Under the pieces are notes generated by a model. The model was not told the origin of the DNA and ran no database searches. It was given only the letters and a program-made list of their open reading frames with translations. A program made the translations under genes and the position numbers. Shown one piece after another: positions 4,579-20,101 of a stretch of 25,608 bases of DNA. Position 1 is the stretch's first letter. Each line of letters begins with the position of its first letter. The DNA is from a virus: the IMG/VR virus record IMGVR_UViG_3300046005_001432, positions 1 through 25,608 of that record. One strand, 5' to 3'.

Positions 4579-4766
4579 AAAACAATTACATGGCATTTGC
4601 TGAAAGCCTCAGAAAAGAAGCAGAGGGAATTACAAATAATGCGTTGTCGGAACTGCTTGATATTGCAGCAAATAAAATCGAGGCGTTGGCTGAAAACAAT
4701 CGAGAGCTTAGGCACCTAATCGACGAACAAAACTTGAAAAAACATTATGAGGTGAAACATACATGA
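4575..4766 (+). CDS. Small helical protein (63 aa)
   Basis: The frame is coupled on both sides by ATGA overlaps. It begins MKNNYMAFAESLRKEAEGIT and continues as an Ala/Glu-rich helix with LLDIAANKIEALAENNREL. This is typical of small phage proteins that carry a helical hairpin of about 50 residues. Function is unknown. Confidence 0.65.
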   Translation: MKNNYMAFAESLRKEAEGITNNALSELLDIAANKIEALAENNRELRHLIDEQNLKKHYEVKHT

Positions 4767-5362
4767 GCGACAAAATGTGGATGACAGTTCAAAAGATGGA
4801 AGAAGCGTTTTCAAGGTCTGCTTTTTATGGCCTTGGGTTGCCATACGGGAAGACATCAGAAACATCGTTCGATGAGTTTGATGCTAAAACAATGGAGAAT
4901 GCAGCATCGATCTGCGCGCACAAAGGCAATGGTCATGAGTCTTTTACTGAAATTATGGGCATTACGTGGAACATCAACGCGCCACGGTATTTCTGGCAAG
5001 AGTTCGACCGCTACAGAGTAGGAGTATCCAAAATTTCGGAATCTACGATGCACACTATCATGCGCAGGCCATTAACGCAGGATAATTTTAACCGCAATAT
5101 TCCGGATTCAATGTTGATAATTTTGAACGGCGAAATTCAATCAGGATGCGACATCGTCCAAGTAAAAAACATGCTTCCAGAAGGGTTTCTACAGCGTAGA
5201 GTTGTTTTTATGAACTATAGGGCAATGGCGCACATAATGCGCCAGCGAATGGATCACAGGCTTGATGAGTGGAAACTATTCATCGCCTCGATATTGACAC
5301 ATTCGAACCATCGGAATCTGTTAATGCTAATGGTAAACCAGAAAGAGGCTAGCAATGATTGA
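4763..5362 (+). CDS. ThyX-like (FAD-dependent thymidylate synthase family) protein, divergent
   Basis: ThyX methylates dUMP to dTMP with FAD and methylene-tetrahydrofolate. This 199-residue protein has the general ThyX order. First comes HESFTEI with His58. Then comes APRYFWQEFDRYRVGVSKIS (73-92), in the place of the ThyX R-HRxxS segment. Finally LPEGFLQRRVVFMNYRAM lies in the place of the late Pro-Glu and Asn-Tyr-Arg region. The signature is altered: Tyr replaces His, and there are three residues rather than two before the Ser. It may be a divergent enzyme or an inactive relative. The dUTPase in the same gene block fits a dUMP-using step. The gene overlaps its upstream neighbour and ends a run of coupled genes, followed by 75 non-coding bases. 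Confidence 0.55.
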   Translation: MSDKMWMTVQKMEEAFSRSAFYGLGLPYGKTSETSFDEFDAKTMENAASICAHKGNGHESFTEIMGITWNINAPRYFWQEFDRYRVGVSKISESTMHTIMRRPLTQDNFNRNIPDSMLIILNGEIQSGCDIVQVKNMLPEGFLQRRVVFMNYRAMAHIMRQRMDHRLDEWKLFIASILTHSNHRNLLMLMVNQKEASND

Positions 5363-5367
5363 TTAGG

Positions 5368-5396
5368 TTGTTCAGTTATTTAGTTGTATCTAAGAT
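5368..5396 (+). promoter_or_regulatory. Possible weak promoter before 5438
   Basis: TTGTTC (5368-5373) and TAAGAT (5391-5396) are 17 bases apart in the only clear gap between 2650 and 9058. Each hexamer has two mismatches to consensus, and the CTATTGACA core of the other promoters is absent. It is a suggestion only, but the gap marks a change in gene character. Confidence 0.25.
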
Positions 5397-5437
5397 ATGT
5401 GACTAACCCACCCCACCCCAATAGAGGATTTGTTCTA

Positions 5438-5659
5438 ATGAACACCAAAAAAGCGTTGAATAAGTTGTATAATAATGTTTGTATGAAATGCATCCATGAG
5501 AGTGTGGACACTCCGTGTCCTCTCTATACATTGGTTTTTGAGAATGATAATGCCGGAATTTCTTCCACAGGACTGGATGATTTGTTCGCAATTTCGGATT
5601 GTTGGTGTGAAAGTACAGAAATTTGTGATATGTTCATTAAAAAGGATATTGACTTATGA
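5438..5659 (+). CDS. Small Cys-rich protein
   Basis: I chose ATG 5438 (MNTKKALNKLYNN) because GAGGAT lies eight bases upstream. A longer TTG start at 5384 would add a proline-rich leader without a ribosome site. The 73-residue product has seven cysteines in the pattern C-MK-C ... C ... CWC ... C, suggesting a metal-binding fold. It overlaps the next start (ATGA). No family is recognised. Confidence 0.6.
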   Translation: MNTKKALNKLYNNVCMKCIHESVDTPCPLYTLVFENDNAGISSTGLDDLFAISDCWCESTEICDMFIKKDIDL

Positions 5660-5937
5660 TAAACATCGAATACAAAGAAGATGGACACAGTGAAAACTAT
5701 GAGACAAAAAAAACAGGGATATATAAAACCGTCCTTATATGTGATTGTTGCAAACACTCCCAAGAAGGGAGACAGAATATGTGGTGGCATTTAGATCGAT
5801 ATTTTGGTATAACAGGGCTTTTTTGTAGCATATGCTATGCTAAAGTATCCCATAATAGCTTTGGAGAACCTAAACACCCAAAAATATATGAAGACATACT
5901 TCAAAGATTCGAATATGATGATGACACTTCGAAATAA
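5656..5937 (+). CDS. Small protein with two CxxC pairs
   Basis: The 93-residue product has CDCC (about 29-32) and CSIC (about 57-60), separated by an aromatic linker (MWWHLDRYFGITGLF), then YAKVSH. This is a plausible zinc-binding module. The start is coupled to the previous gene by ATGA. It lies just upstream of the methyltransferase with an eight-base gap. Function is unknown; DNA or protein binding is possible. Confidence 0.6.
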   Translation: MINIEYKEDGHSENYETKKTGIYKTVLICDCCKHSQEGRQNMWWHLDRYFGITGLFCSICYAKVSHNSFGEPKHPKIYEDILQRFEYDDDTSK

Positions 5938-5945
5938 GGGTTTCT

Positions 5946-6683
5946 ATGAAAAAACATGTTAAATGGGTTTCTGAAGATGGTCGTGTGGAACTTTATTGTG
6001 GGGACGCATTCGATATTCTACATGGAATGCGATCAAATTGCATTGATGCCATTGTCACTGATCCTCCATATATGCTGGAAGGACATATGCTACGACCAAA
6101 GGATAAGCAGCTTGCCTGCGACAGTCTAAAAGGAGCTTGGAATGAGAATGATCCTAGGGACACATATATTCACTTCAAGAGAATCTGCAAGGAATCATGC
6201 AATCTAGCGGTGTTCCATGACAGGAAATCGGAACCTCCCATTCCTCATTTTGAGGGATGGAACAATCACTATCTAGTGAAAAGTCAATTCTCTCCAAGAT
6301 TCCGTGCTGGATTCTGTTCCGCAGTGGAAGTTTGCACAATCTATAAAAGGCCTAAGGTGAAATTGAAATGGTATGGAGCATCCAATGTTAAAATTCCAAA
6401 CTATACTGTCTGCGGCGTGGACAAAGCCACTAAGCATCCAGCGGAGAAGCCCATTACCCTCATCAACAAACTAATCACATGTCTGACTGCCAAGGATGAT
6501 GTGGTGCTAGACCCATTTATGGGGAGTGGAACCACAGGGGTCTCATGCGTGAGTCATGGAAGGAAGTTCATAGGAGTGGAGCTTGATCCAAAGTTTTTCG
6601 AGATGGCGAAGGAGAGGATCATCAGTTCAGGAGCCATAGGGGAGGGCAATTCTTGTGGACAACCCATTATCTTCGGAGTGTGA
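5946..6683 (+). CDS. DNA methyltransferase, beta class (N6-adenine or N4-cytosine)
   Basis: The enzyme would transfer a methyl group from S-adenosylmethionine to an exocyclic amino group in DNA. Motif IV, TDPPY (38-42), comes before motif I, LDPFMGSGTTG (188-198), and a HPAEKP segment (164-169) lies between. This order defines the beta class. TDPPY is found in adenine methyltransferases and also in some N4-cytosine enzymes, so the base is not fixed. At 245 residues the target-recognition part is small, as in phage orphan methyltransferases. No restriction gene is adjacent. Likely roles are protection against host restriction or marking of phage DNA. AAGGG lies before the ATG. The 3' end overlaps the helicase-loader gene by 29 bases. 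Confidence 0.9.
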   Translation: MKKHVKWVSEDGRVELYCGDAFDILHGMRSNCIDAIVTDPPYMLEGHMLRPKDKQLACDSLKGAWNENDPRDTYIHFKRICKESCNLAVFHDRKSEPPIPHFEGWNNHYLVKSQFSPRFRAGFCSAVEVCTIYKRPKVKLKWYGASNVKIPNYTVCGVDKATKHPAEKPITLINKLITCLTAKDDVVLDPFMGSGTTGVSCVSHGRKFIGVELDPKFFEMAKERIISSGAIGEGNSCGQPIIFGV

Positions 6684-7281
6684 AGAGATTCCCACATGTC
6701 CAATATGCGGAGTGAATCCCTGCATCTGGGACAAAATTTTGGATGATTGGGCTTATTGTCTGAAATGTCAAACATCCGTCACCGCCAATAGACATGGTTT
6801 GATAGATGATAGTGTGCTTTCATCCGTAGGAATTCCAAGCAGATATTTCTCCGCCGATCTATCCGATTTCAGTTTGGAGGATATGGGAGGAATAAAAATA
6901 GACAAGGGCGTTTTAGTGACCGGGAAAGTGGGTGCTGGGAAGACTCATCTGCTATGTGCCCTGTGCAAGCATATGCTATCGATAGGAAAAGGGGTTCTTT
7001 TCATCCCCTGCACAGCTTTGATGTCCACTTTGAAGGAAAGTGGATTCAAAGGAGGAGAGGAGTATGTGGACAGGATAATCAAAGTGGAGTGTCTTTTCCT
7101 TGATGACTTCGGAACACAGGGTAATTCAGAGTGGGTGTATGGAATCTTCTATAGGATCATAAATGAGAGATATAATAGAAATTCATACACAGGATTCTCA
7201 ATCAACGGCAATTTGAAGGATGTGTGCGATGACAGGATACGTAGACGCATAACAGAGATGACAAGGAGATTCACTCTATGA
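6655..7281 (+). CDS. DnaC-like helicase loader (AAA+ ATPase)
   Basis: Helicase loaders use ATP to place the replicative helicase on DNA. The GTG start at 6655 has an AGGGGAGGG ribosome site eight bases upstream. The 208-residue product has Cys15, Cys18, Cys23, Cys35 and Cys38 as a likely zinc knuckle. Next come Walker A TGKVGAGKTH (89-98) and Walker B CLFLDDFGTQ (146-155). An Arg-rich end (DRIRRRITEMTRRF) carries arginine-finger/sensor-2-like residues. The DnaC/IstB/DnaI family has this layout. It lies directly before the helicase, separated only by one small gene, which supports the assignment. Confidence 0.85.
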   Translation: MDNPLSSECEEIPTCPICGVNPCIWDKILDDWAYCLKCQTSVTANRHGLIDDSVLSSVGIPSRYFSADLSDFSLEDMGGIKIDKGVLVTGKVGAGKTHLLCALCKHMLSIGKGVLFIPCTALMSTLKESGFKGGEEYVDRIIKVECLFLDDFGTQGNSEWVYGIFYRIINERYNRNSYTGFSINGNLKDVCDDRIRRRITEMTRRFTL

Positions 7282-7478
7282 GTAGAAAGAAGAAGTGCCT
7301 ATATTCCGTTTCAGTTATTTATCTTTTGGCTGAACACAGTTACATGAGATATCACTATATAGGATATTTTCAGTGTTCCAATGTGGATGAATTATTGAAG
7401 TTGACGGAAGCTGATATCTCACGCAGCCACGGAAAGCATATTGTGGAAAGCGCATTAACACTAAAGGTTGATATATGA
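7278..7478 (+). CDS. Small hypothetical protein between loader and helicase
   Basis: The 66-residue product is coupled at both ends by overlaps (ATGA with the loader, ATGA with the helicase), so it would be made together with them. It begins MSRKKKCLYSVSVIYLLAEH and has an aromatic middle (MRYHYIGYF), then an acidic helix. The pattern suggests a small beta sheet followed by helices. No family is recognised; a helicase or loader accessory role is only suggested by position. Confidence 0.6.
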   Translation: MSRKKKCLYSVSVIYLLAEHSYMRYHYIGYFQCSNVDELLKLTEADISRSHGKHIVESALTLKVDI

Positions 7479-9058
7479 AAGTTAGTTCCGACAAGGATCA
7501 GGTGCTGACTGGAATTCTATCCGCCTGCGTATGGTCGAAGGAATTCCTAGCTAAATTCACACGAGCGCATAAGAAATCGGAGTACTTCACCATAGGAGCC
7601 ACTGGCACAGTCATTCAATGGTGCCTCGCATACTACAAGGATTATAAAGAAGCTCCAAAATATCATTTGCAGGATATCTATGAGAAGGAACTTCGAAAAG
7701 GCGCTATAGACAAGGGTGAGATGGAGATGGTGGAGACTGTCATAGCGGTGGCTATGATAGATCAAGAGGACAGGAACACCAAATTCCTTTTGGATGAAGT
7801 TTCCAAGTTGACTTCCATCTATGATATGAACGCGTTGAAGGACGAGTTGGAATATGCCATAGAGCGGGAGGATTTCAAGAAGGTGGAGGCTCTATTAGAG
7901 CAGAAGCGCAAAATAAACGAAGTGCAGACCTCTAAGAGCGTTGATCCGTTCAAGGACGACTACGCTATAGAGTGCGTCTTCTCGCAGTCCCAAGAGCCTC
8001 TATTCCACGTTAAAGGGGCTTTGGGAAATCTAATCAACAATCACTTGAAACGGGATTCCCTTATAGCTATTCTCGCCCCTGAAAAGAGGGGTAAAAGCCA
8101 ATTGATGATGGAATTGGCTATGAGAGCCACAATGTCCCGCTGCAATGTCGCCATGTTTCAGGTGGGTGATTTGTCCGACTATCAATTCTTCCGTAGGATG
8201 TGGAGTTGGATGATAGGCAAGACGGCGGATGAGTGGAGGGTGGGAAAAGAAATTCAAATTCCTGAAATGGACTGTCTCCTCAATCAGAACAATACCTGCA
8301 TACGTGCTGGAAGAGTCTCATGCGGACAATCTATTTTAGATGCCACAGGAAAACAAATTTCGGAACTTCCGGAAGGTTATGTCGCGTGCAAACGTTGCCA
8401 CATGCGTGATTTGAGTTTCAAAGGAGCCGTCACCATGATTCCATCTGTTTTGGACAGTATGATCACGGAGGAGGACTGCATCCGATGGAGGAAAGTATTT
8501 CAATATAGAACGAAAGGCAGACGTTTCAAGGTGTCCACTCATTCAAACTCCACTGTGAATGTGGCTGATTTGAATAACATACTTCTCAAATGGAAGTATG
8601 AGGAGCAGTATGAACCGGATGTGATCGTCATTGATTATGCGGATATTTTAGCTCCTGAGGATTCCAAGAAGGATCAAAGAACCATACAAGATGAACGATG
8701 GAGGGCACTGAGAAGACTTTCACAGGATTTCAATTGTCTTGTGATTACCGCCACTCAAGCGGGTAGAAGCACATACACTTCAGATGTCGTGTCGGCATCT
8801 GATGTGAGTGAGGATAAAAGAAAGAATGCCCACTTGACTGGAATGCTAGGACTACATCAAGTCCCAGAGGAGAAATCCCATGGGGTGATCAGAGTTGGGT
8901 GGCTTATGCTCCGTGAAGGAGACTTTAACGAAAGCGAGCAAGCTGTGGTGTTACAGGATTTATCAAGAGGACAGGTGCATTTGGACTCATATCTAATTAA
9001 CTACGAGGGAAAACCTCTATTTCGTTACTCTAAGACTATAACGGAGGATTCAGAGTGA
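7475..9058 (+). CDS. Replicative DNA helicase, DnaB-like, with Cys-cluster insertion
   Basis: It would be the ring helicase that unwinds the fork. The 527-residue protein has an N-terminal helical region (about 1-150) like the DnaB N-domain. The RecA core follows: Walker A APEKRGKS (201-208), Walker B DVIVIDYAD (382-390) and a late ITATQAG (424-430) in the position of the DnaB H3/sensor Gln. Between Walker A and B is an insertion with Cys267, Cys275, Cys283, Cys305 and Cys308, not usual in DnaB, that could hold a metal. A C-terminal Arg (LREGD) may serve as the finger. ATGA coupling joins it to the upstream gene. It is the last gene before a promoter-bearing gap. Confidence 0.85.
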   Translation: MKVSSDKDQVLTGILSACVWSKEFLAKFTRAHKKSEYFTIGATGTVIQWCLAYYKDYKEAPKYHLQDIYEKELRKGAIDKGEMEMVETVIAVAMIDQEDRNTKFLLDEVSKLTSIYDMNALKDELEYAIEREDFKKVEALLEQKRKINEVQTSKSVDPFKDDYAIECVFSQSQEPLFHVKGALGNLINNHLKRDSLIAILAPEKRGKSQLMMELAMRATMSRCNVAMFQVGDLSDYQFFRRMWSWMIGKTADEWRVGKEIQIPEMDCLLNQNNTCIRAGRVSCGQSILDATGKQISELPEGYVACKRCHMRDLSFKGAVTMIPSVLDSMITEEDCIRWRKVFQYRTKGRRFKVSTHSNSTVNVADLNNILLKWKYEEQYEPDVIVIDYADILAPEDSKKDQRTIQDERWRALRRLSQDFNCLVITATQAGRSTYTSDVVSASDVSEDKRKNAHLTGMLGLHQVPEEKSHGVIRVGWLMLREGDFNESEQAVVLQDLSRGQVHLDSYLINYEGKPLFRYSKTITEDSE

Positions 9059-9082
9059 TTTTTGTCTATTTATTCCTGTTTT

Positions 9083-9116
9083 AGCTATTGACAGATAGCT
9101 GTTTCAGTGTTATAAT
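9083..9116 (+). promoter_or_regulatory. Sigma70-type promoter with dyad over the -35 box
   Basis: TTGACA (9088-9093) and TATAAT (9111-9116) are exact consensus with a 17-base spacer. The -35 box lies inside a perfect inverted repeat AGCTAT-TGACAG-ATAGCT (9083-9100). The promoter at 14166 has the same six-base centre with different but again complementary arms, so a regulator or RNA structure is suspected. It would drive the clamp-like gene and genes beyond. Confidence 0.9.
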
Positions 9117-9146
9117 TGTGTAGTTGAGAATAAAAAGGTTATTTAA

Positions 9147-9187
9147 GAAAGAAAAAACATGTGAAAGGAGTTAAGGTTTTTTCTTCC
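9147..9187 (+). promoter_or_regulatory. Leader stem-loop with an orphan Shine-Dalgarno
   Basis: GAAAGAAAAAAC (9147-9158) pairs with GTTTTTTCTTCC (9176-9187), ten contiguous base pairs plus one beyond a mismatch. The 17-base loop holds AAAGGAG (9164-9170), which serves no start codon (the gene begins at 9228), and a start-stop ATGTGA at 9159. It repeats the design seen at 1235-1279. A role in mRNA stability or in binding idle ribosomes is inferred. Confidence 0.5.
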
Positions 9188-9227
9188 ACGGTAGGAACAA
9201 ACAATAAAATCATTGGGGTATGATCGT

Positions 9228-10373
9228 ATGCAAATCGAAAAGAAGACACTACTAGACAATCTCACTAAAATCACCTCAGCTATCAAGGGGGCTCTGCTTT
9301 TGAGTCCCACCCATATTTATTCCGTGAATGGAGTGGAGGGCGTCGCATCCTTTCGGTTGGATATCGGTGTCGAAGGTGTAATCAAAATCGATGGTTCGAA
9401 ACTTCTTTCCATCCTAAAGAAAATGCCGGATGACACTATTGATGTCTCCTACAATAAAGAAAAAGGAGAGGTTCTTGTCAAGAAAGGGAAATCCCGTTAT
9501 GGATTTAAGATCATTGAAGGCACATACACCATTCCAAATAGTGAAAACAACACCAAACTGAAGGAATTCGACAAGGACTCCTTCGCTTTGGCAGTTGGAA
9601 TGACTTCTTCAATCATGGTGAAGAAATTCACTTCGGCATTCACACCATTCGTTCACTACAATGGTAAATGCAAACGTCTTGAAGCTACTGATAGGCGGAA
9701 ACTGCTTCTGTACAATGTGGATTTAGGAGATGAGAACTTTCTTGTTTCCGATGTGGTGTTCAATTCTTCATTGAAGACCAAGCCCGACACCATTGGCGTA
9801 AGTTCCAAATGGGTCACTTTATCCGATGGAGTAGTGACCACCATGATTATGAACTGCGCCTCTTCGAACACATATCCGGACTTCACTCCATTCATTGAGA
9901 AAATGGAACTTGAAAGCAAGTCCAAAGTGGTGTTTCCTCCCAACTTGGAGGAGATGCTTTCACGAGTCGGCGCATTTGGTTTGGATTTGAATTCCTACTT
10001 CGAATTCAAAATTGAAGATGGAGTGATGTCCTTGTCCGGAAACAGTGAATCAGCTTGGTTCGAGGATAAGGAGGATGTCGGAAACAGTGAGGATGTATGC
10101 TTCAAGGTGAATAGCGTCATTCTATCCAATGCTCTTTATCTTGGTGGTACAGCCGAGAAGTTCGAGAATAAAATCACGATCAAGGGCACTGATTGGATTT
10201 ACATGACATCGCTTGCTGAAACTGAAACAAAGAATGAGAGGACGGAGATTAAAGTTCCTCCTCCGGATGTGGAAACTCCAGTGATAGAGGTGGTGGATGA
10301 GACAACGGATGTTCCGTTTGATGCGGATGAGACAAGTGTTCCAGAGGTGGAAGAGTCAGATGAGTGGAATTGA
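9228..10373 (+). CDS. Sliding-clamp-like DNA polymerase processivity factor
   Basis: A clamp encircles DNA and tethers the polymerase. I chose ATG 9228 (MQIEKKTLLDNL), with GGGGT about eight bases upstream, over a TTG 15 bases earlier that lacks a ribosome site. The 381-residue protein has the length of bacterial DnaN. It shows the repeated pattern of an amphipathic helix followed by beta strands, and DnaN-like phrases such as IDGSKLLSILKKMPDDTIDV and KSRYGFKIIEGTYTIPNSE. No single residue motif proves the family, so the call rests on fold pattern and on position before the polymerase and a clamp-loader gene. The last 45 residues are a Pro/Asp/Glu-rich tail ending SDEWN, which a typical clamp lacks. 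The ssDNA-binding protein ends almost the same way. Confidence 0.65.
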   Translation: MQIEKKTLLDNLTKITSAIKGALLLSPTHIYSVNGVEGVASFRLDIGVEGVIKIDGSKLLSILKKMPDDTIDVSYNKEKGEVLVKKGKSRYGFKIIEGTYTIPNSENNTKLKEFDKDSFALAVGMTSSIMVKKFTSAFTPFVHYNGKCKRLEATDRRKLLLYNVDLGDENFLVSDVVFNSSLKTKPDTIGVSSKWVTLSDGVVTTMIMNCASSNTYPDFTPFIEKMELESKSKVVFPPNLEEMLSRVGAFGLDLNSYFEFKIEDGVMSLSGNSESAWFEDKEDVGNSEDVCFKVNSVILSNALYLGGTAEKFENKITIKGTDWIYMTSLAETETKNERTEIKVPPPDVETPVIEVVDETTDVPFDADETSVPEVEESDEWN

Positions 10374-10391
10374 AAAGTAAAATTTAATGAC

Positions 10392-10417
10392 AGGCTCCTT
10401 CGGGAGCCTTCCTTTTA
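10392..10417 (+). terminator. Rho-independent terminator after the clamp-like gene
   Basis: AGGCTCC-TTCG-GGAGCCT (10392-10409) is a perfect seven-pair, GC-rich stem with the very stable UUCG loop, followed by TTCCTTTTAT. It lies 18 bases after the stop at 10373 and before the polymerase gene. Readthrough or a further promoter must supply the polymerase mRNA; no promoter was seen between 10374 and 10432. This could lower polymerase relative to clamp. Confidence 0.85.
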
Positions 10418-10431
10418 TAAAAGGTGGAGCA

Positions 10432-11592
10432 ATGCTTTTCGAAGAAGCTGATGGAAATGTGAACACTCCTATGTGCTCTAAGTGCAAAGGATATTCGAAT
10501 TCCAATTATTCTTATATGGAAATGATAGGAAGGGGAGACAAGATTCTTTTTGTCACGGATGATTTCAATAAGAATCCTAAAGAGTCGTGGCTGGCTCCTA
10601 GAATGGAAAGGTTCATTAAAGACATCTGCGAGGATTTGAAACTTAACTACAACACTGACTGCGGAGTGGTTCCAGCCTATAAATGCGACGGAAACGACAA
10701 AGGAGCCTCGTTTTGCCACTTTCCCGTGTGTAATATCATCCAATCCGCAAATGCCCGTAGCGTCGTTCTATTAGGCAAAAACGCCCTAGTCTCCGTTGTT
10801 GGAAGCAAGTGGAAACGGGACATAGGGGAACTTGACAAGTGGATTGGTTTCACAATACCTATTTATGATCGATGGATCATTCCGACATATAATCCATTTC
10901 AAGAGTATGGCAATGAATTTGTAATAGACAATCATGTTCCCACTAAAATTCTATTTGAGAACATCACTAAAGCGAATGATTATAGAAACCACCCCATAAC
11001 AAGTGTGCAAAAAACTGCCAAAATCAAAATCTTGTCGGAAAATGAATCCGTCATTCTTTTGGAGTCCATGAAGGAGGATTGTCCCCTTTCAGCTTTCGAC
11101 TATGAGACTACTGGGCTACGTCCATATAATAAAGGACACTCCATAGAGACTGTCAGCGTGGCATTCAAAAGAAAAGATGTTCTAACATCATATGCGTTCA
11201 CTGTGTCCGATAAGAATTCCCAAGCAATTAAAGATTACTTGCAGAATGGAAATCTCAAGAAGATAGCCTCCAATATGAAGTTTGAGGACACATGGAGCAA
11301 AGTCATCTTCGGAGTAGGTGTGAAAGGGTGGGTTTTCGACACCATGCTCGCCCAACACATCATTGATTGCAGAGAGGGGATATGCTCTTTGAAGTTTCAA
11401 GCGTTCGTGAGATATGGTTTTGAGGACTATGAGGCGAAAGTGAAGCCTTTTCTCATAGCGAAAGATGCTTCCTCGTTAAACAATATCAAAAACTGTTCTT
11501 ATCCGCTGCTGTTGAAATATAATGCCATTGACTCATACTTGGAATATGTGTTGGCGGAGGATATGATGAATGAACTGGGGGTGGTCATATGA
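10432..11592 (+). CDS. DNA polymerase N-terminal part: UDG-like domain plus 3'-5' exonuclease
   Basis: It would form the proofreading half of the replicative polymerase. ATG 10432 follows AAGGTGGAG. An earlier ATG at 10387 is unlikely because its first codons form the terminator stem. In the 386-residue product, residues 10-165 look like a uracil-DNA-glycosylase-fold domain: CSKC (15-18), Cys85 and Cys100 spaced like the [4Fe-4S] ligands of family 4 UDGs, SVVLLGKNAL, and IIPTYNPFQ near the HPS-loop position. Residues 200-386 are a DEDDy-type exonuclease: FDYETTGL with Asp223/Glu225, NMKFED with Asp286, and YNAID with Tyr363/Asp367. SPO1-like polymerases carry the same domains joined to the palm in one chain. 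Here the palm is a separate gene with an ATGA overlap at 11589. Confidence 0.85.
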   Translation: MLFEEADGNVNTPMCSKCKGYSNSNYSYMEMIGRGDKILFVTDDFNKNPKESWLAPRMERFIKDICEDLKLNYNTDCGVVPAYKCDGNDKGASFCHFPVCNIIQSANARSVVLLGKNALVSVVGSKWKRDIGELDKWIGFTIPIYDRWIIPTYNPFQEYGNEFVIDNHVPTKILFENITKANDYRNHPITSVQKTAKIKILSENESVILLESMKEDCPLSAFDYETTGLRPYNKGHSIETVSVAFKRKDVLTSYAFTVSDKNSQAIKDYLQNGNLKKIASNMKFEDTWSKVIFGVGVKGWVFDTMLAQHIIDCREGICSLKFQAFVRYGFEDYEAKVKPFLIAKDASSLNNIKNCSYPLLLKYNAIDSYLEYVLAEDMMNELGVVI

Positions 11593-14126
11593 ATCAGTTG
11601 GATGCCTATAATCTATTTCATGAGGGGACTAAGGCTCTAGGAATAGCGGAGCGCAATGGCATGAGGGTCGATGTGAGGCTTCTTGATGCCACGATAGACA
11701 AGGAGGGAGGACGATGTTCCGTTATATCAAGTGAGTTGGATGCCATGGTGGAGGGTAGACAATGGAAGGAGAAGTATGGTTCAAATTCCTCCTATCTATC
11801 TCCGCAGCAGCTCACAGTCATATTGAAAAATTATGGTTTGACCATTGAAAAAGCGGATAAAGCTGTTTTATCTAAAATAGAATCTCCATTTGTAAGGAAG
11901 ATTCTCGAACTCCGTAAAATATCCAAGATGATAGCCAGTCTGACAGGATTCAAGCGGGAAGTCACCAATGATGAAAGGATACACCCATCATTTCACCTTC
12001 ATGGAGTGTCCTCATACCGTTCCAGCAGTTCCAATCCAAACTTTCAAAACATAGCTATTCGTGATCCCGAGACTGCGGAACGCATTCGAAGTTTGTTCAT
12101 TCCCACAAGTGGATATAGGTTACTTGAGGTCGATTATTGTTTCACAGGAGACACACAAATTGAAACAACTGGTGGAAGGAAGACCCTCAAAGAAATAGTG
12201 GAAAAGCAAGATTTGTGTCATGTGTATGGATATGACAAGGATAAAGGAAGGGTGTGTGTATCTCGTATCATAAGAGCAGCTAAGACACAAACAAGCCAGC
12301 CTGTGTTTACTGTTACCTTAGACAATGGGGAAACTGCTAAAGCCACGGCTAACCATAGGTTCATGTTGAGAGATGGTTCTTATCGGGAGTTGCGGTCCCT
12401 TCGTCCTGGCGATTCCCTCATGCCATTTTATACCACCACACTGTCACAAACCAATATAAAAACTAAGTACAGATGGGTGTATTTGAATAATGGTGAAAAG
12501 ATGAAAGCCCATAATCTTGTGGCTTTGGATGTTCTTGGATACACTATCAAAGGTTCTTATAAAATTGTGCATCACAGGAATGGGAATGGGTGGGATAATG
12601 ATCCATCTAACTTAGTGGTGATGGACAGAAAAGAACACATGTCTATACATTCAAAACAAGGTTGGGAAAACACTAAAAATGGAGCAGAACACAAAAGACA
12701 GACTTATCAACGTTCGGCAGAGGGCAGAGCTGAACAAAGCATAAGAAGTAAAAGGATACATGATGAAACACCTGAGTGCATTAAAAGGGAGTGGTATAAA
12801 CACATCTCAGAAAGCCATAAGGGTCTTTATGAAGGTTCTAAAAACCCCATGTATGGAAAAAAACACAAAATTGAGACAGTGGAGAAGATAAGAGCTACTA
12901 AAAAAAGACAGAACATAAAGTCTTTTTTAGGAAGAACCCATTCTATGGAGACACGTTTACTTTTAAGTGCAAAAAACAAAGGGAAAAAACTAACGGAGGT
13001 AATCAAACGCAAAATATCTGCTTCTGGAAAGGGTAGAATATGCAAGGAGGAGACAAGGAAACTACTACGAGAGAGGGTGTTCACTGAGAGTACAAGGATG
13101 AAAATGGGGAAGGGCATTAAAGAAAGGTGGAAAAAAGCCAAGACACACTCATGCCCTATCTGTAAAAAGGAATATAGGTCGCTAAGTGGAATTCCCTCTA
13201 CCACACATTTACGTCATAAGCATGGTTTGACAACGGAAGAGTTCAAGGACACCTACAACCACAAGGTTGTTTCCGTTGATTTCTATGGTTATGAGGATGT
13301 TTACAATATCACAGTGGATAGGATTCATAATTATGCTTTGAAGGCAGGTGTCATTGTTGCTAATTGTGGAATCGAAGTCCGTGCGTCAACATTCTACAAT
13401 AAAGACCCTGTGCTTATAAATTACATTTTGGACAAGACTACTGATATGCACAAGGATATGGCTTCCGAGTGCTATATGCTGCCAAAGGATAAAGTGACGA
13501 AGGAGATTCGTTACTGCGCGAAGAACATGTTCGTGTTTCCGGCTTTCTATGGATCATACTACAAGCAGATCGCCCCTCATTTGTGGAATGCCATTGGAGA
13601 TATGAAACTAAAACTGTCCGATGGAACTGATTTGGCTTCCCATGTTGCGGCTAGAATAGGTGATCGAAATGATTTCATGGCCCACATACAAAAAGTGGAG
13701 AACGCTTTTTGGAATGATAGATTCAAAGTCTACACACAATGGAAAAAGGATTTCTACAGCAAATATTTGGAGAGGGGTTACTTCGACTCATTGACAGGAT
13801 TCCGCTACAAAGGAGAGTTCAAACGGAATCAAGTGCTGAATTATGCGATTCAAGGAACGGCATTCCACTGTCTTCTATGGAGTTTCATCGAACTCACGAA
13901 GGAATTCATCAAGAATAAGTGGAAATCAAAAGTGATAGGACAGATTCACGATAGTATCATAACTGAAATCCATGATAGCGAATTCGAGGCTTATAAGGTG
14001 TTGATCAAAGACATCATGACTAGACGTGTGGTTCAGGCGTTTCCATTCATCAATGTTCCATTGGAAGTGGAGATAGAAGCCGCAGGGGTGGACGAATCTT
14101 GGCACAAAAAGAAAGCTGTCAAGTGA
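11589..14126 (+). CDS. DNA polymerase A palm/fingers domain, interrupted by an intein
   Basis: This is the polymerising half of the split polymerase: 845 residues before splicing and 436 after removal of residues 184-592. Flanking sequence is clearly PolA. SSYRSSSSNPNFQNIAIR (141-158) is the 'RxSSxxPNxQN' region, and motif A is LLEVDY/CGIEVR (178-183 joined to 593-598) with catalytic Asp182. Motif B is RYCAKNMFVFPAFYG (641-655), with LNYAIQGTA (750-757 region) after it. Motif C is QIHDSI, with Asp788. Motif C has Ser where most PolA enzymes have Glu. The intein lies exactly in motif A, so the enzyme should be inactive until it splices. The start overlaps the exonuclease gene (ATGA), which suggests coupled translation of the two subunits. 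Confidence 0.92.
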   Translation: MNQLDAYNLFHEGTKALGIAERNGMRVDVRLLDATIDKEGGRCSVISSELDAMVEGRQWKEKYGSNSSYLSPQQLTVILKNYGLTIEKADKAVLSKIESPFVRKILELRKISKMIASLTGFKREVTNDERIHPSFHLHGVSSYRSSSSNPNFQNIAIRDPETAERIRSLFIPTSGYRLLEVDYCFTGDTQIETTGGRKTLKEIVEKQDLCHVYGYDKDKGRVCVSRIIRAAKTQTSQPVFTVTLDNGETAKATANHRFMLRDGSYRELRSLRPGDSLMPFYTTTLSQTNIKTKYRWVYLNNGEKMKAHNLVALDVLGYTIKGSYKIVHHRNGNGWDNDPSNLVVMDRKEHMSIHSKQGWENTKNGAEHKRQTYQRSAEGRAEQSIRSKRIHDETPECIKREWYKHISESHKGLYEGSKNPMYGKKHKIETVEKIRATKKRQNIKSFLGRTHSMETRLLLSAKNKGKKLTEVIKRKISASGKGRICKEETRKLLRERVFTESTRMKMGKGIKERWKKAKTHSCPICKKEYRSLSGIPSTTHLRHKHGLTTEEFKDTYNHKVVSVDFYGYEDVYNITVDRIHNYALKAGVIVANCGIEVRASTFYNKDPVLINYILDKTTDMHKDMASECYMLPKDKVTKEIRYCAKNMFVFPAFYGSYYKQIAPHLWNAIGDMKLKLSDGTDLASHVAARIGDRNDFMAHIQKVENAFWNDRFKVYTQWKKDFYSKYLERGYFDSLTGFRYKGEFKRNQVLNYAIQGTAFHCLLWSFIELTKEFIKNKWKSKVIGQIHDSIITEIHDSEFEAYKVLIKDIMTRRVVQAFPFINVPLEVEIEAAGVDESWHKKKAVK
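12138..13364 (+). mobile_element. Intein with HNH homing endonuclease in DNA polymerase motif A
   Basis: The 409-residue element (residues 184-592 of the polymerase frame) begins with Cys in CFTGDTQIETTGG (block A). It has TANH with Thr253 and His256 (block B) and ends VYNITVDRIHNYAL (block F) and GVIVAN, followed by Cys593. These are the self-splicing residues, except that the penultimate residue is Ala where His is usual. Inside lies an HNH nuclease (IVHHRNGNGWDNDPSNL, 326-342, His350), then repeated NUMOD3-like stretches (NPMYGKKH, FLGRTHSMET, SGKGRICKEET, about 418-505). A C2H2-like finger follows (CPIC 522-525, His540, His545). The NUMOD3 repeats probably contact DNA. Homing to intein-free polymerase genes is expected from family knowledge. 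Confidence 0.92.
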
Positions 14127-14160
14127 TATTGTCTAAAAAATATCGAAAATAAGCGGTTTG

Positions 14161-14193
14161 CCCTATTGACAGATAGGGAAAAGTGACTATAAT
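14161..14193 (+). promoter_or_regulatory. Sigma70-type promoter with dyad over the -35 box
   Basis: TTGACA (14166-14171) and TATAAT (14188-14193) are exact consensus hexamers with a 16-base spacer. The -35 box is embedded in CCCTAT-TGACAG-ATAGGG (14161-14178), a perfect dyad that matches the one at 9083 in its centre but not in its outer arms. It precedes the clamp-loader gene. Confidence 0.88.
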
Positions 14194-14200
14194 TAGTATA

Positions 14201-14273
14201 CAGCAAGAAAAAAGGAGCTTGACAGGTTCGGTTTCGTGTTCAAAAGCTGTAAAATAAAATCGGAGAAATTATT
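14201..14273 (+). promoter_or_regulatory. Clamp-loader mRNA leader with orphan Shine-Dalgarno
   Basis: AAAAAAGGAG (14208-14217) lies about 11-18 bases after the probable transcript start and about 57 bases before the real start codon at 14274. ACAGC (14200-14204) and GCTGT, as well as AGCTT and AAGCT around the downstream AAAAGCTG, could pair and hold the SD in a loop. The gene uses its own CGGAGA site at 14261. The role is inferred from the two similar leaders. Confidence 0.4.
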
Positions 14274-15194
14274 GTGGAACTCTACAGGTTGTACCGTCCA
14301 AACACACTGGACGAAGTAGTCGGAAATGACAATGTTAAAAATCAACTCAAAGGCATGCTTAAAAAAGATTTCGTGCATGCTCTTCTTCTCACCGGGCCTA
14401 GTGGATGTGGAAAAACCTCTCTAGCCCGCATTCTCCGCAATGAATTGAAATGCCATGACAGCGAGTTCATGGAGATCGATGCGGTGGACGCTAGCGGAGT
14501 GGACAGCATTCGTGAACTTCGTGACGGACTACAATATCCTCCTATGTTCGGCAGCGTGAAGGTTTACCTGCTGGATGAATGTCACAGAATGTCCACCACA
14601 GCTCAAGATTGTCTTTTGAAGTGTCTTGAGAATGCTCCCTCATATGCCTATTTCATCCTTGCCACAACCGAAAAGAACAAACTCATTCCTACTTTAAGGA
14701 ATCGATGCGTGGCCCTTGAGGTGTCTTTGCTCGATAATGATTTGATTGCGAAGAAGATTCTATGGCCCATCGCTAGAAAGGCTGGATTGAATGTCGAGAA
14801 GGAAGTACTCTTGGCAATTGGTGGCAACTCCGGGGGGAGTCCTCGCAAAGCTATCTCCGTCCTTGAACGAATCGCAGCATTGCCAAAAGAGCAGCAATTG
14901 TCAGAAGCCAATAAAGGAAATGACGATGAGACCCCTCAAGATATCCGAGAGCTTTGTCAGACGTTGCTCAAAGGCGGTTCTTGGGGTGCTGTGTCTAAAA
15001 TGGTTAAAAATATAAAAGAGGAGCCGGAAGCCGTACGGAGAATGATTCTAGGATATATGTCCGCCGTTCTTTTGAATGGAGTCAATCCAAGAGCGCATCA
15101 AATTATGCTCTGTTTCGAAAAGAACTACTATGACACTGGTAAGGCAGGTATGACAATCAGTTTCTATGAGGCTGTCGGGAGTTCCAATGAGTAA
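14274..15194 (+). CDS. Clamp loader ATPase subunit (DnaX-like, AAA+)
   Basis: It would open the sliding clamp and place it at primed sites. The GTG start at 14274 has CGGAGA seven bases upstream. The 306-residue protein begins LYRLYRPNTLDEVVGNDNVK, the usual DnaX/RFC opening. It then has Walker A GPSGCGKT (41-48), Walker B VYLLDECHRM (97-106), sensor 1 FILATTEKN and an NRC box (143-145) in place of SRC. GNSGGSPRKAISVLE supplies sensor 2. There is no zinc module and no tau-like C-terminal extension, so it is a minimal loader; no second loader subunit (HolA/HolB-like) was recognised. It is the first gene of the long recombination operon and overlaps the next start. Confidence 0.92.
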   Translation: MELYRLYRPNTLDEVVGNDNVKNQLKGMLKKDFVHALLLTGPSGCGKTSLARILRNELKCHDSEFMEIDAVDASGVDSIRELRDGLQYPPMFGSVKVYLLDECHRMSTTAQDCLLKCLENAPSYAYFILATTEKNKLIPTLRNRCVALEVSLLDNDLIAKKILWPIARKAGLNVEKEVLLAIGGNSGGSPRKAISVLERIAALPKEQQLSEANKGNDDETPQDIRELCQTLLKGGSWGAVSKMVKNIKEEPEAVRRMILGYMSAVLLNGVNPRAHQIMLCFEKNYYDTGKAGMTISFYEAVGSSNE

Positions 15195-15390
15195 TGAGAA
15201 GACAAGGTTCGTCAGATTCAACACACAGTTCGACACGACGATTAAATTGTGGGGTAATAAGGAAAACATCTTGAAGACTCTAAGAGAAGTTTTTCTTTTC
15301 GACAAAGTTTCGGTGGAGACAATCAGTAAAAAGTTTGATGATTATGATGCTGAATTGGAAATTAACATCAAAACAGAGGACGATTTATGA
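15187..15390 (+). CDS. Small hypothetical protein
   Basis: I chose ATG 15187 (MSNEKTRFVRFN), eight bases inside the clamp-loader gene, with CGGGAG upstream. An earlier ATG at 15166 would overlap more and lacks a ribosome site. The 67-residue protein has an N-terminal beta-like part (KTRFVRFNTQFDTTIKLWG) and a helical stretch NKENILKTLREVFLF, then strands ending in an acidic tail TEDDL. ATGA coupling joins it to the next gene. No family is recognised. Confidence 0.6.
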   Translation: MSNEKTRFVRFNTQFDTTIKLWGNKENILKTLREVFLFDKVSVETISKKFDDYDAELEINIKTEDDL

Positions 15391-15941
15391 ATTCCAGTAT
15401 AATCTCCTCCACAGGGGAGGAAGAAGATGTCAAAAAGTATTTGGAGATCGATGAGTTCAACTTGGATCGTGAGTGGCAGACATATCCCGCTAAATTCATG
15501 GAGGTTTGTCAAAAATCATTGGACTCCCAGCAGGCTTTCAATGATGCCAAGGCTCTTTTGGAGCGGGACACGGCGAAGTATCAGATGGATATCCGTGAGA
15601 ACACTAAATGCTATACTGCGAATCCTAAGTTGACTGAGACGCTGATCGAGGCTATCATAGCTTTGCAGTCTAGGATTCAAAACTTGAAAAAAGATTTGTT
15701 GGAAAAACAGTACATTAAAGATCGTTATGGTTTTCTAGTAAAAGCTATGGAATGCAAAAGGAAGTCCTTAGAGAATATGGTTCACTTGATGGGACTGCAA
15801 TATTATTCAGAACCAAAACAAAAAGGGAGTGATGTGAAATCTGTTGCTGTGAATCAAGAAATGAGGAAGAGTTTCAAGAGAAGTGTGGAAGAAAGTGTTT
15901 TTGTCACAGAAGAAGCCAATCAAAATGAAAGAGGTGAATAA
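15387..15941 (+). CDS. Coiled-coil protein, possible UvsY-like recombination mediator
   Basis: UvsY-type mediators load the RecA-like recombinase on ssDNA covered with SSB. This 184-residue protein has an acidic N-terminus and then an Ala/Asp-containing helix QQAFNDAKALLERDTAKYQM. A conserved-looking KLTETLIEAIIALQSRIQNL follows, and then a long coil ending in MECKRKSLENMVHLMG. The C-terminus is polar and disordered. The layout (helical core, basic region, Arg/Lys before a terminal hydrophobic helix) fits phage UvsY-like proteins, and it lies directly before the gp32-like gene and four genes before the recombinase. There is no decisive motif, so the call is tentative. The stop overlaps the next ATG (TAATG). 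Confidence 0.5.
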   Translation: MNSSIISSTGEEEDVKKYLEIDEFNLDREWQTYPAKFMEVCQKSLDSQQAFNDAKALLERDTAKYQMDIRENTKCYTANPKLTETLIEAIIALQSRIQNLKKDLLEKQYIKDRYGFLVKAMECKRKSLENMVHLMGLQYYSEPKQKGSDVKSVAVNQEMRKSFKRSVEESVFVTEEANQNERGE

Positions 15942-16924
15942 TGGGTTCCGACATGATTATCAGCCGTTCACGCATTGCGGATCGTATGGGTCGCTGCGCA
16001 AAAGCCAATAAAAGCGGCAATCTGCACTTTTGCCCTCCATCCGGAGTTGAGGTTTGGTGTCCAACAGAGGAGAAGGACTATCGCATTAACATTATTCCAT
16101 ATCTGATCACTAAGAAAAACCATCCGGATGGCATTCTTTCCGGCGAGGAGTTTCAGATCGGTGAGGATTGGTATCGCCGTCCGTATGGAATCCACTCCAA
16201 AGTCGGAGGAATCCGTGATGTGATCTGTCCTTTGGTCACGTTCAAAAAGCCGTGTCCTATCTGTGAGGAGGTGTTGAAACTAAGTTGGAATGACGATGCG
16301 GAATTGATTCGCACTCTGCGTCCAAAACGTATGATGCTTTACAATCTGTATCATCCAAAGCAAAACACATATTCCATCTTCGATTGGAGCAAGACAAAAT
16401 TTTCAGATGTGTTGGAAGGGGAGCTTCTGCGCAATAGTGACAAAAGTCTTTCCAATTTCGTTCAATTGGAAGGTGGGATGACACTCACCATTCGCTCAAT
16501 TCAAAAAGTGTTCGCCGGACAGAAGTTCTTCACTATCGACCGCATTGATTTCTCACCTTCCCCTAGGGACACATATCCGAAATCAGTGCTGGAGAATGCT
16601 CCAAAGCTGGATGATGTATTTACGGAGATGCCATATGAGGATATCAAGGAACTGTTCATGACCGGGAAAAAGCAGTTGAAGGACAGAATCGAGGAGACGG
16701 AGGAGACACACACACCAGTGCAGACAAGAATCAAGCAAGCCTCCGTTAAGAGTGTTCAAGATGATGATGCTCCACCCGTCCGTCCTACACGTCCTATTAA
16801 GAGCGTGCAAGAGGATGACGACGATGATGTTCCGGTAGTGAAGGCCAAGCCCACTGTCAAAAAGCCACAGTTTGAAGACTCCCCTTCTCTTCCGGCTCCT
16901 ACAGATGAAGAATGGAATGATTGA
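15941..16924 (+). CDS. Single-stranded DNA-binding protein, gp32-like
   Basis: This protein would coat ssDNA at forks and during recombination. GAGGTGA lies just before the start. In the 327-residue product, His85, Cys96, Cys105 and Cys108 (YGIH...VICP...PCPIC) match the T4 gp32 zinc site in type and nearly in spacing. The zinc subdomain sits in an OB-like core (about 30-220). From about 235 to the end the chain is low-complexity, Pro/Asp/Glu-rich and disordered, with a near-repeat ASVKSVQDDDAPPVRPTRP / IKSVQEDDDDDVPVV and a final DEEWND. Acidic C-terminal tails of gp32 and SSB recruit partners. A long hairpin directly after the stop may control its expression or separate it from the next genes. 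Confidence 0.88.
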   Translation: MGSDMIISRSRIADRMGRCAKANKSGNLHFCPPSGVEVWCPTEEKDYRINIIPYLITKKNHPDGILSGEEFQIGEDWYRRPYGIHSKVGGIRDVICPLVTFKKPCPICEEVLKLSWNDDAELIRTLRPKRMMLYNLYHPKQNTYSIFDWSKTKFSDVLEGELLRNSDKSLSNFVQLEGGMTLTIRSIQKVFAGQKFFTIDRIDFSPSPRDTYPKSVLENAPKLDDVFTEMPYEDIKELFMTGKKQLKDRIEETEETHTPVQTRIKQASVKSVQDDDAPPVRPTRPIKSVQEDDDDDVPVVKAKPTVKKPQFEDSPSLPAPTDEEWND

Positions 16925-16936
16925 GAATTGATAAAA

Positions 16937-16969
16937 AGCGTGAAAGGATAGTCACATACCTTTCACGCT
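16937..16969. terminator. Long hairpin after the SSB gene
   Basis: AGCGTGAAAGG (16937-16947) and CCTTTCACGCT (16959-16969) are perfect 11-base arms around an 11-base loop. On the plus strand the stem is followed by CATTCAAC, without a T tract. On the minus strand it is followed by TTTTTATC, so an intrinsic terminator would act mainly on antisense transcripts. On the plus strand it could still protect or process the SSB mRNA 3' end. Confidence 0.6.
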
Positions 16970-16995
16970 CATTCAACTTAAAAAGGATATTTTCA

Positions 16996-17289
16996 ATGTC
17001 TCTTAAAGTATTTCAAGTTCATGTTCACTACCACTACATTTGTCTAGCAGAGGACACTGAACAGGCTAAGGAGTTCTATAAAGAGGCTTCCCGTGATCTA
17101 GGAACATCTAATAAGGATTTTATCTTTTCCCCTGTGGAAAGCATTGAAGATGTTTCTAAGACATATTTAATGTCTGGATACATGCCTGAAGACTATATCT
17201 ATCACAGATTCCGTTCAGAGAATGTCAAACTAAAAGATTCCTTCTCATTTATCGAGAAGAAGAACAAAGAAGGAGATGTCAAATGTTAA
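16996..17289 (+). CDS. Hypothetical protein
   Basis: I chose ATG 16996 because AAAAAGGAT gives eight-base spacing. An upstream TTG at 16921 would place the hairpin inside the coding region. The 97-residue protein starts MSLKVFQVHVHYHYICLAED, a His-rich beta strand (HVHYHY). It continues with an amphipathic helix (TEQAKEFYKEASRDLG) and ends in a Lys-rich helix. It resembles a small alpha/beta protein; the His cluster could bind metal. It overlaps the following gene by seven bases. Function is unknown. Confidence 0.6.
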   Translation: MSLKVFQVHVHYHYICLAEDTEQAKEFYKEASRDLGTSNKDFIFSPVESIEDVSKTYLMSGYMPEDYIYHRFRSENVKLKDSFSFIEKKNKEGDVKC

Positions 17290-17522
17290 TTCCCTTTGAG
17301 CTTTTTGATGGGTCGATTGTTTGGTTGAAACCCACTAAGAAGACTATGGTGATCATGGTGTGCCTGTGTGATGGTTTATGGGAAACCCATTTGGATAATC
17401 AAGGAGATAGTATATATACTCTTTGCAAAGGAGAAAAGAAAACAAATGCTTTCAGAATGGCCCTAAGCGCAGTGGAAAAAATCAATATGTGCTTAGAATG
17501 CAAAGGAAATAAAAATGCTTGA
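17283..17522 (+). CDS. Small hypothetical protein
   Basis: The 79-residue product begins MLIPFELFDGSIVWLKPTKK, probably a short beta-barrel-like opening (strand-turn-strand), followed by VIMVCLCDGLWETHLDNQGD. The C-terminus has CLEC. AAGGAGATG lies before the start. It overlaps the previous gene and, by eight bases, the recombinase gene. No family is recognised. Confidence 0.6.
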   Translation: MLIPFELFDGSIVWLKPTKKTMVIMVCLCDGLWETHLDNQGDSIYTLCKGEKKTNAFRMALSAVEKINMCLECKGNKNA

Positions 17523-18522
17523 ACTATCCACTGGATCGACACTATTCAATTTGGCATTGTCCGACAATGCTTTGACAGGACTCAAAACGGGAAAGATGAT
17601 GAATCTTATCGGGGACTCATGCGCTGGAAAATCTTTTCTGGCTTTGACAATTCTCGCCAAGGCGTGTTACTCTAAGAAGTTTGACAAATACAAAAAATAC
17701 TATGATGATGTGGAGTCCGCATGTGAGTTCAACATGTTGGATTTGTTCGGTGAGAAAGCTGAAAAGGAAATAATCTCTCCTTATGAGGATTCCCCTTCCA
17801 GCGAAACTATTGAGCAGTTCTACTATAATATTGACACTTTGCTGGACAAAGGAGAGCCATTCATCTATGTCCTCGACTCTATGGATGCTCTTACCACCAA
17901 TAGTGAATCTGAATTGTTTGATGATAATAAAAAGGCTTTTGAGAAGGGAACACAAACGAAAGCCACTTATGGAGATGGCAAAGCGAAGCAGAATTCAGCA
18001 AATCTACGAAAGATCGTGGGACGTTTGAAGGAGACGGAATCAATACTGATTATCATTAGTCAGACAAGGGATAATATTGGTAATGCATATGTTCCCAAGA
18101 CAAGGGCGGGAGGAAAAGCCCTTAAATTCTATGCTAGCTGGGAAGTGTGGGTGTCCGTAGCGGAAAAACTTAAAATGAAAGTCAACGGCAAGGATAGAAT
18201 CATTGGTATCAATGCTCTATTGAAAGTGGCTAAGAACAAGGTTACTGGAAAGTATGTGGATGTTCAAGTTCCCATTTACTATTCCTGCGGGGTGGATGAT
18301 GTGGGTTCCATGATCGATTGGATGGTGGCGGAGGGTGGTTGGTCTAGTAAGACTGGTTGGATTGAATCGCCATTTGGAAAACATCGAATGGACGCTCTTG
18401 TCGAACACATCATAGAGACTAAAAAGGTGAAGGAATTGAAACTTTTAGTGCAGGAGGCTTGGACGGCCATTTGGGAAAAATGTCGTGTGAATAGGAAAAG
18501 TTCTTTGGAAGAGATCGAATAA
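17515..18522 (+). CDS. RecA/UvsX-type recombinase
   Basis: It would form helical filaments on ssDNA and promote strand exchange for recombination-dependent replication and repair. AAAGGAA precedes the ATG. The 335-residue protein has Walker A GDSCAGKS (33-40), Walker B IYVLDSMDAL (117-126) and the L2/sensor region IIISQTRDNIG (179-189) followed by RAGGKALKFYAS, all typical of the RecA/UvsX fold. The start is close to the core, so the N-terminal RecA oligomerisation helix is short. The neighbours (SSB, UvsY-like, PD-(D/E)XK nuclease, Mre11-Rad50) make UvsX-like function likely. Assignment to the recombinase rather than the DnaB family rests on the S-Q-x-R-x-N-I-G motif. Confidence 0.88.
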   Translation: MLELSTGSTLFNLALSDNALTGLKTGKMMNLIGDSCAGKSFLALTILAKACYSKKFDKYKKYYDDVESACEFNMLDLFGEKAEKEIISPYEDSPSSETIEQFYYNIDTLLDKGEPFIYVLDSMDALTTNSESELFDDNKKAFEKGTQTKATYGDGKAKQNSANLRKIVGRLKETESILIIISQTRDNIGNAYVPKTRAGGKALKFYASWEVWVSVAEKLKMKVNGKDRIIGINALLKVAKNKVTGKYVDVQVPIYYSCGVDDVGSMIDWMVAEGGWSSKTGWIESPFGKHRMDALVEHIIETKKVKELKLLVQEAWTAIWEKCRVNRKSSLEEIE

Positions 18523-19915: not shown

Positions 19916-20101
19916 AGATATTTATGGGCTGTAGTGTTATTTTTAGTGGGTGCTCCGTCAAACAAAGCGATGGAGTTATTGTTCCAGTCAATCCAAATCC
20001 ATGCAATTTCACTATTAAATGGATGAGAATCAATGTTGATTTCCGGGAACCAATGAAACAAAGTTTTTGTTAAAATTACAAAGTATATAAAAGGGTTGGT
20101 T
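19916..20101. other. Intergenic gap with weak candidate small genes
   Basis: This 186-base gap interrupts an otherwise packed operon. A plus-strand frame 19924-20073 (49 codons, MGCSVIFSGCSVK...) and a minus-strand frame 20115-19912 (67 codons) both stay open, but neither has a proper ribosome site. AAGGG just before 20102 serves the next gene. No consensus promoter was found. The gap may be a decayed gene or an mRNA leader. Confidence 0.35.

Follow-up and report, generated by a model that had tools for sequence, protein, structure and literature searches.

Family-A DNA polymerases are textbook single-chain enzymes that carry their proofreading domain in cis. A stretch of viral DNA of 25,608 nucleotides (IMG/VR record IMGVR_UViG_3300046005_001432, a 25.6-kb virus contig, the record being a genome fragment; hereafter the window) raises the question of whether such an enzyme can also be encoded in two pieces. 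Here, a gene for a 3'-5' exonuclease with a uracil-DNA glycosylase (UDG)-like domain (gene 1) is followed by a gene for the polymerase part (gene 2). We report data that make it likely that the two genes encode a two-subunit replicative family-A polymerase with a separable UDG-exonuclease proofreading subunit, belonging to an uncultivated tailed-phage-like virus. The features of the two genes are as follows.

10432..11592, + strand: gene 1, UDG-like and DEDD(y)-type 3'-5' exonuclease subunit, 386 amino acids (Pfam, family profile, AlphaFold model, ribosome-binding site AAAGGTGGAG upstream)
10474..10983, + strand: predicted Family-4-type UDG-like domain with C15, C18, C85 and C95 conserved and the glycosylase motifs degenerate (family profile, Pfam in relatives)
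11020..11583, + strand: 3'-5' exonuclease domain, D223/E225 (Exo I), E285 (Exo II) and Y363/D367 (Exo III) (Pfam, Klenow superposition, conservation)
11589..11592, + strand: ATGA stop/start overlap (sequence; likely ribosome-binding site GGGGGTGG 5' of the ATG)
11589..14126, + strand: gene 2, family-A polymerase precursor, 845 amino acids, 436 once spliced (Pfam, open reading frame)
11589..12137, + strand: N-extein, comprising the thumb and the beginning of the palm as far as motif A (...LLEVDY) (alignment; continuous with the C-extein in intein-free relatives)
12138..13364, + strand: intein of 409 amino acids (C1 ... AN / C+1) within motif A, with splicing domain, HNH_3 endonuclease and NUMOD3 (Pfam; approximately 100 uninterrupted relatives)
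12504..12641, + strand: HNH homing-endonuclease core of the intein, gene 2 residues 306-351 (Pfam HNH_3)
13365..14123, + strand: C-extein, remainder of motif A (CGIEVR) together with motifs B (fingers) and C (QIHDS) (alignment; Pfam DNA_pol_A)

An earlier sequence-only reading of the window had proposed two open reading frames (ORFs), 10432-11592 and 11589-14126, joined by ATGA, and we found the same coordinates and overlap. The stop codon TGA of gene 1 occupies 11590-11592, the ATG of gene 2 starts at 11589, placing gene 2 in frame -1 with respect to gene 1, and the two genes would be coupled translationally at this point. The longest ORF of gene 1 opens at 10387; the start at 10432 is to be preferred because 10387 precedes a terminator-like hairpin (see below), while 10432 is preceded by AAAGGTGGAG. 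The single polypeptide of SPO1-type polymerases is thus replaced in the window by two ORFs, and the suggestion that proofreading is a separable subunit was borne out in so far as it is a separately encoded protein.

Relatives were gathered with four seeds (gene 1, the C-terminal polymerase half, the N-terminal polymerase half and an exonuclease alignment) and represent the best matches per query; the proportions given here are valid for this neighbourhood of sequence space. After dereplication the set comprised 200 loci. Of these, 177 could be classified, 156 as split and 21 as fused; the remaining 23 are truncated where the contig ends. The split had been seen as peculiar to this phage; it is instead what most of the clade shows (156 of the 177 classifiable relatives). 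Fused homologues exist as anticipated, both among the relatives (21/177), which share the SPO1-type layout, and in the Lysinibacillus phage LysYB1, where UDG, exonuclease and polymerase lie in one ORF of 891 amino acids. The exonuclease is always paired with the polymerase where the contig has room, and neither opposite strands (0) nor the order polymerase before exonuclease (0) occurred in the 177 classifiable loci, i.e. the linkage of the two genes is obligate. In the split loci the genes overlap or abut in 72 cases and are separated by 1-100 bp in 8, by 101-1000 bp in 61 and by >1 kb in 15, with a maximum of 4.7 kb. The ORFs in between appear by eye to be mutually unrelated (ThyX-, MazG-, DnaJ-, helicase-, methyltransferase- and HNH-like).

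The junction itself is fixed. When aligned with a fused relative (L034), the exonuclease rows stop at its residue 407-408; in the model of this protein (predicted local distance difference test score, pLDDT, 91) the split point falls in a short loop that connects helix 381-406 with helix 411-430. As a single body, the fused model fits onto both the Bst large fragment (562 residues, 2.9 Å) and Klenow (567 residues, 3.2 Å), and the same exonuclease-polymerase geometry would therefore be available to a heterodimer. A tree restricted to polymerase columns, with 98 dereplicated rows (85 of them split, 13 fused) and LysYB1 as outgroup, needs six state changes, of which at least four are forced by strong branches, and the fused forms branch first together with the fused outgroup. 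This suggests that the ancestor was fused, that it was split once at an early stage and that the parts were rejoined several times, where the direction is tentative because the outgroup branch is very long; the split state is probably old.

For the gene 1 protein, Pfam predicted DNA_pol_A_exo1 (E 1.6e-7), and residues 197-384 of its AlphaFold model (pLDDT 86.7) match Klenow residues 329-518 with the DnaQ-like fold (Z 21.4, 2.5 Å, 176 residues). Hence, the protein ends where the Klenow exonuclease domain ends. D223, E225, Y363 and D367 of the DEDDy ligand set are present, while the Exo II Asp is E285 (11284-11286). At this position, Klenow D424, Glu was found in 97/97 aligned rows, split and fused alike, and Asp in two outgroup polymerases; the HMMER alignment also places the family Glu opposite the Asp of ExnV1, a stand-alone exonuclease discussed below. 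As judged from these alignments the metal site of the family is D-E-E-D-y, a non-canonical set, and its invariance argues for a function of the exonuclease. The sequence-only reading had placed a UDG-like domain and a DEDDy exonuclease in one gene; the exonuclease stands by Pfam and the Klenow fit and the UDG part by way of the relatives, but the canonical Exo II Asp is a Glu. In one subclade (L016, L019, L020, L022, L026, L032, L035, L131 and L133) the exonuclease subunit ends with the peptide LPF, and the polymerase of two fused relatives (L004 and L012) ends with DDLPF. The terminal LPF might possibly be a portable clamp-binding tail; a C-terminal clamp-type tail of this kind was looked for in both window proteins, as part of the mechanism, and is absent.

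The N-terminal part of gene 1 was assigned through its family. By itself the window protein scored below the threshold for Pfam UDG, because its glycosylase motifs are degenerate, whereas 22/23 aligned relatives matched Pfam UDG and the gene 1 family profile matched Type-4 UDG structures (best E 5.9e-25). The structure matches of the gene 1 model (VIA list) were to exonucleases only, and the assignment of the UDG fold therefore relies on the sequence profiles, which support a Family 4 UDG fold. All four cysteines of the iron-sulphur cluster pattern (C15/C18/C85/C95) are kept in the window and such a cluster is predicted. The glycosylase motifs read TDDFN in place of GEAPG and NPF in place of HPS, which leaves the window protein without the Family 4 catalytic motifs, and its glycosylase activity has probably been lost. 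Both motifs are retained in 25/98 relatives (strict pattern); catalysis is therefore probably not the shared function of the UDG-like domain. Upstream of this domain the exonuclease subunits share a conserved N-terminal motif, M.GFF..E (e.g. L009, L013, L031, L077 and L080), where the window reads MLFEEAD; the motif is perhaps a docking peptide.

Gene 2 matches Pfam DNA_pol_A (1.3e-40) and contains the family-A motifs A (DY|CGIEV), B (K..FVFPAFYG) and C (QIHDS). It encodes a 436-amino-acid thumb/palm/fingers polymerase and a 409-amino-acid intein (residues 184-592), with Pfam matches to Intein_splicing (2e-18), HNH_3 (7e-9) and NUMOD3 (5e-4). The earlier description of the second gene as a "PolA palm" was right in the family-A assignment, but the protein begins with the thumb, includes the fingers and is interrupted by the intein, which that reading had missed. 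The insertion, after which comes Cys+1, opens with CFTGDTQI and includes TANH as well as HNYALKAGVIVAN. It sits in motif A at VDY|CGIEVR; relatives read DYS, DFS or DFK at this site and the Cys is restricted to the intein allele. The residues flanking the insertion are contiguous in relatives; nearly all loci have 0-2 residues between them. By its Cys1, splicing blocks, C-terminal Asn, Cys+1 and precise insertion it is classified as an HNH-type intein, which would be self-splicing. Since it interrupts motif A, gene 2 is a precursor, the active site of which would be assembled only upon splicing. The C-terminal DNA-binding tail of the intein (within 12138-13364) contains NUMOD3 repeats followed by a zinc-finger-like stretch, CPIC...H...H.

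Across the family, intein sites were found at five positions, distributed over both subunits and located at active-site or cluster motifs.

Motif A: window
RS|S, ahead of PNFQN: L026, L089 and L275, and also the isolate RcKickapoo
QG|SAFHC: L195 and L196
Exonuclease subunit, within Exo II: L067 (LAGLIDADG type)
UDG domain, at a cysteine of the cluster: L089

L089 thus has one intein per subunit. The inteins at sites other than that of the window (L026, L067, L089, L195, L196 and L275) have differing endonuclease types. A tblastn search with gene 1 against isolate phages gave no match, and the best isolate or record matches of gene 2, SP-15 and LR756508, were rejected since it was mainly the intein that matched and the matches are located in other genes. 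In SP-15, the "hypothetical protein" SP15_022 (L117, KT624200.1 12315-13934) has an unannotated intein within it, and the megaphage LR756508.1 (L118) has a 1386-amino-acid ORF with several intein-like insertions, as judged by eye.

The genes and signals surrounding the two subunits include the following.

9213..10373, + strand: probable sliding clamp, upstream neighbour (DNA_pol3_beta Pfam 4e-4, below cut-off; relatives in 12 loci)
10392..10409, + strand: stem of a terminator-like hairpin that separates the clamp-like gene from gene 1
14274..15194, + strand: clamp-loader ATPase, conserved downstream neighbour (Pfam 2.5e-23; homologue in 120 loci)

Helicase-loader-like and DnaB-like genes are also present upstream of gene 1. 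A RecA homologue was found in 67 loci, and an ORF at 15941, possibly encoding a protein like the single-stranded DNA-binding protein SSB, is conserved in 111 loci. Judged by their predicted products, these surroundings support a replicase role. Perfect (12/12) sigma-70 promoter matches were noted at 9088-9116 and 14166-14193, before the clamp-like and clamp-loader genes. Further downstream, Rad50 is split around Mre11: the N-half (20096-21124) ends right after a zinc-hook-like CPLCG and is followed by Mre11 (21094-21945) and the C-half (22143-22781). In at least 12 relatives Mre11 is likewise preceded by a short Rad50N ORF, and L055 has all three parts. The Rad50 split is thus also a clade trait, and the proposed trend of this phage to cut large enzymes at domain borders is a property of the clade and not of the phage itself.

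We propose that genes 1 and 2 would be translated separately, coupled at the ATGA, with gene 1 providing the proofreading subunit (a UDG-fold domain and a Klenow-type 3'-5' exonuclease) and gene 2 a thumb/palm/fingers precursor, from which protein splicing must excise the motif A intein before the polymerase could work. The products would probably reassemble in trans with the Klenow geometry and act together with the phage clamp and clamp loader, like epsilon and alpha of the E. coli Pol III core. Several observations weigh against this model. Binding between exonuclease and polymerase is inferred; the clamp-like gene is only a weak DNA_pol3_beta match; the penultimate intein residue is Ala and not the usual His; and as the Exo II Asp to Glu change is family-wide, exonuclease activity is not to be assumed. 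Moreover, in a mirror-tree comparison of exonuclease-polymerase against the clamp loader, RecA and the 15941 ORF, exonuclease distances correlated 0.79 with the clamp loader vs 0.58 with the polymerase. The exonuclease tracks the clamp loader better than the polymerase, and co-evolution therefore gives the model no specific support.

An exonuclease that works independently of the polymerase (e.g. in host-DNA degradation or repair), next to a polymerase without proofreading and linked to it merely as part of an operon, would fit the mirror-tree result, the variably degenerate glycosylase motifs and the Exo II change. We nevertheless regard it as unlikely, given the strict co-occurrence and order in the 177 classifiable loci, the Klenow geometry of the fused model and the several interconversions between split and fused forms at one exact junction, as expected of cooperating parts. 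It is also rather unlikely, although slightly less so, that the split is ancestral and that the single-chain members are later fusions. The large majority of split forms and the uncertain root, with its very long outgroup branch, speak for this order of events, while the early branching of fused lineages with the outgroup and the fused state of the spounavirus and RcKickapoo homologues speak against it.

It is hardly credible that the virus nevertheless produces one chain, whether by programmed -1 frameshifting, by reinitiation-linked fusion at the ATGA or because the stop is a sequencing error. The reading frame of gene 2 extends upstream as far as 11574, and 9 bases before the stop there is a GGGGG run, but CTG GGG GTG does not form an X XXY YYZ heptamer. 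Moreover, the IMG/VR contig 3300045131_001403 is identical to the window across 4432-17589, with 6 single nucleotide polymorphisms in 14.8 kb and a small indel elsewhere, and looks like a separate assembly or strain, near-identical yet distinct. As the ATGA stop is present in this second assembly, the stop at 11590-11592 is not an assembly or sequencing error. The relatives show all frame relations, and since their gaps of up to 4.7 kb hold unrelated genes, frameshifting, readthrough or sequencing error is not the general cause of the split. No intron RNA matched Rfam at gathering thresholds in the window and nine gapped loci; on this basis a group I intron linking exonuclease and polymerase in the gapped relatives was rejected, although a divergent intron might not reach these thresholds. 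None of the events that the sequence-only reading had named as capable of undoing the split (frameshift, readthrough, a stop due to a sequencing error) thus held. Finally, the intein-bearing polymerase might be dead or decaying and another polymerase replicate the virus, as the interrupted motif A and the penultimate Ala could indicate. This is very improbable: the reading frame is open, neither the splicing blocks nor any polymerase motif is damaged, the second assembly shows the same gene, and the 25.6-kb record, itself a fragment, contains no further polymerase of family A.

On the model of two cooperating subunits, an always-linked separate proofreading gene together with several fusion/fission events constitutes a natural experiment on the communication between exonuclease and polymerase sites, and the clade would be a ready-made source of exonuclease-free family-A polymerases with a matching add-back proofreader. 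The split is inherited across the clade, where polymerase annotations are confounded by inteins at five sites. With considerable doubt, the model might be extended to a large undescribed clade with an obligate heterodimer of PolA and UDG-exonuclease, an analogue of the Pol III alpha/epsilon core built on Pol I, with a D-E-E-D-y site and with inteins that repeatedly invaded active-site and cluster motifs of both subunits and, in some members, might gate both synthesis and proofreading.

The components are all of known kinds. A UDG-exonuclease subunit and a separate PolA as two genes were not found described in the open-access literature searched, within which the arrangement is an undescribed variant. 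Polymerase domains are distributed over several ORFs in the OM43 phages MEP401/402, where MEP401 is broken within the polymerase domain and an intron is suspected by the authors (PMC10580990), and in Bacillus phages a family-A polymerase split is caused by endonuclease genes between domains (PMC10684548); the break points or causes differ from those of the window split. ExnV1 (PDB 7r0t), a stand-alone PolI-type 3'-5' exonuclease from a hot-spring virome, was regarded by its authors as a truncated PolI (PMC9629493). Like gene 1 it has no polymerase in the chain, but it is without a UDG domain, is of a different lineage and has no described genomic partner.

Among the single-chain enzymes, the SPO1-type (spounavirus) LysYB1 polymerase is alike in its order of UDG-like domain, 3'-5' exonuclease and PolA; however, it is one chain with no intein seen and has the Exo II Asp (NGKFD), whereas the clade has mostly two chains and Glu. 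The phiLo family-A polymerase (PDB 9qhs, 1142 amino acids) is the top Foldseek match of the gene 1 model and its UDG-like N-terminus is matched by the family profile (1.3e-10); it is a single chain and not close to the window proteins by sequence. Rhodobacter phage RcKickapoo (UUV43815.1) combines UDG, exonuclease and PolA with an HNH_3 intein, but is fused and has the intein at RS|S and not in motif A. Klenow and the Bst large fragment have the exonuclease-polymerase geometry of the fused L034, but in one chain, without UDG and with a canonical DEDDy set. The E. coli Pol III core (alpha, epsilon) consists of a family C polymerase and a DnaQ-type exonuclease and is not homologous as a system; the likeness would lie in a separate proofreading subunit beside a clamp and a clamp loader.

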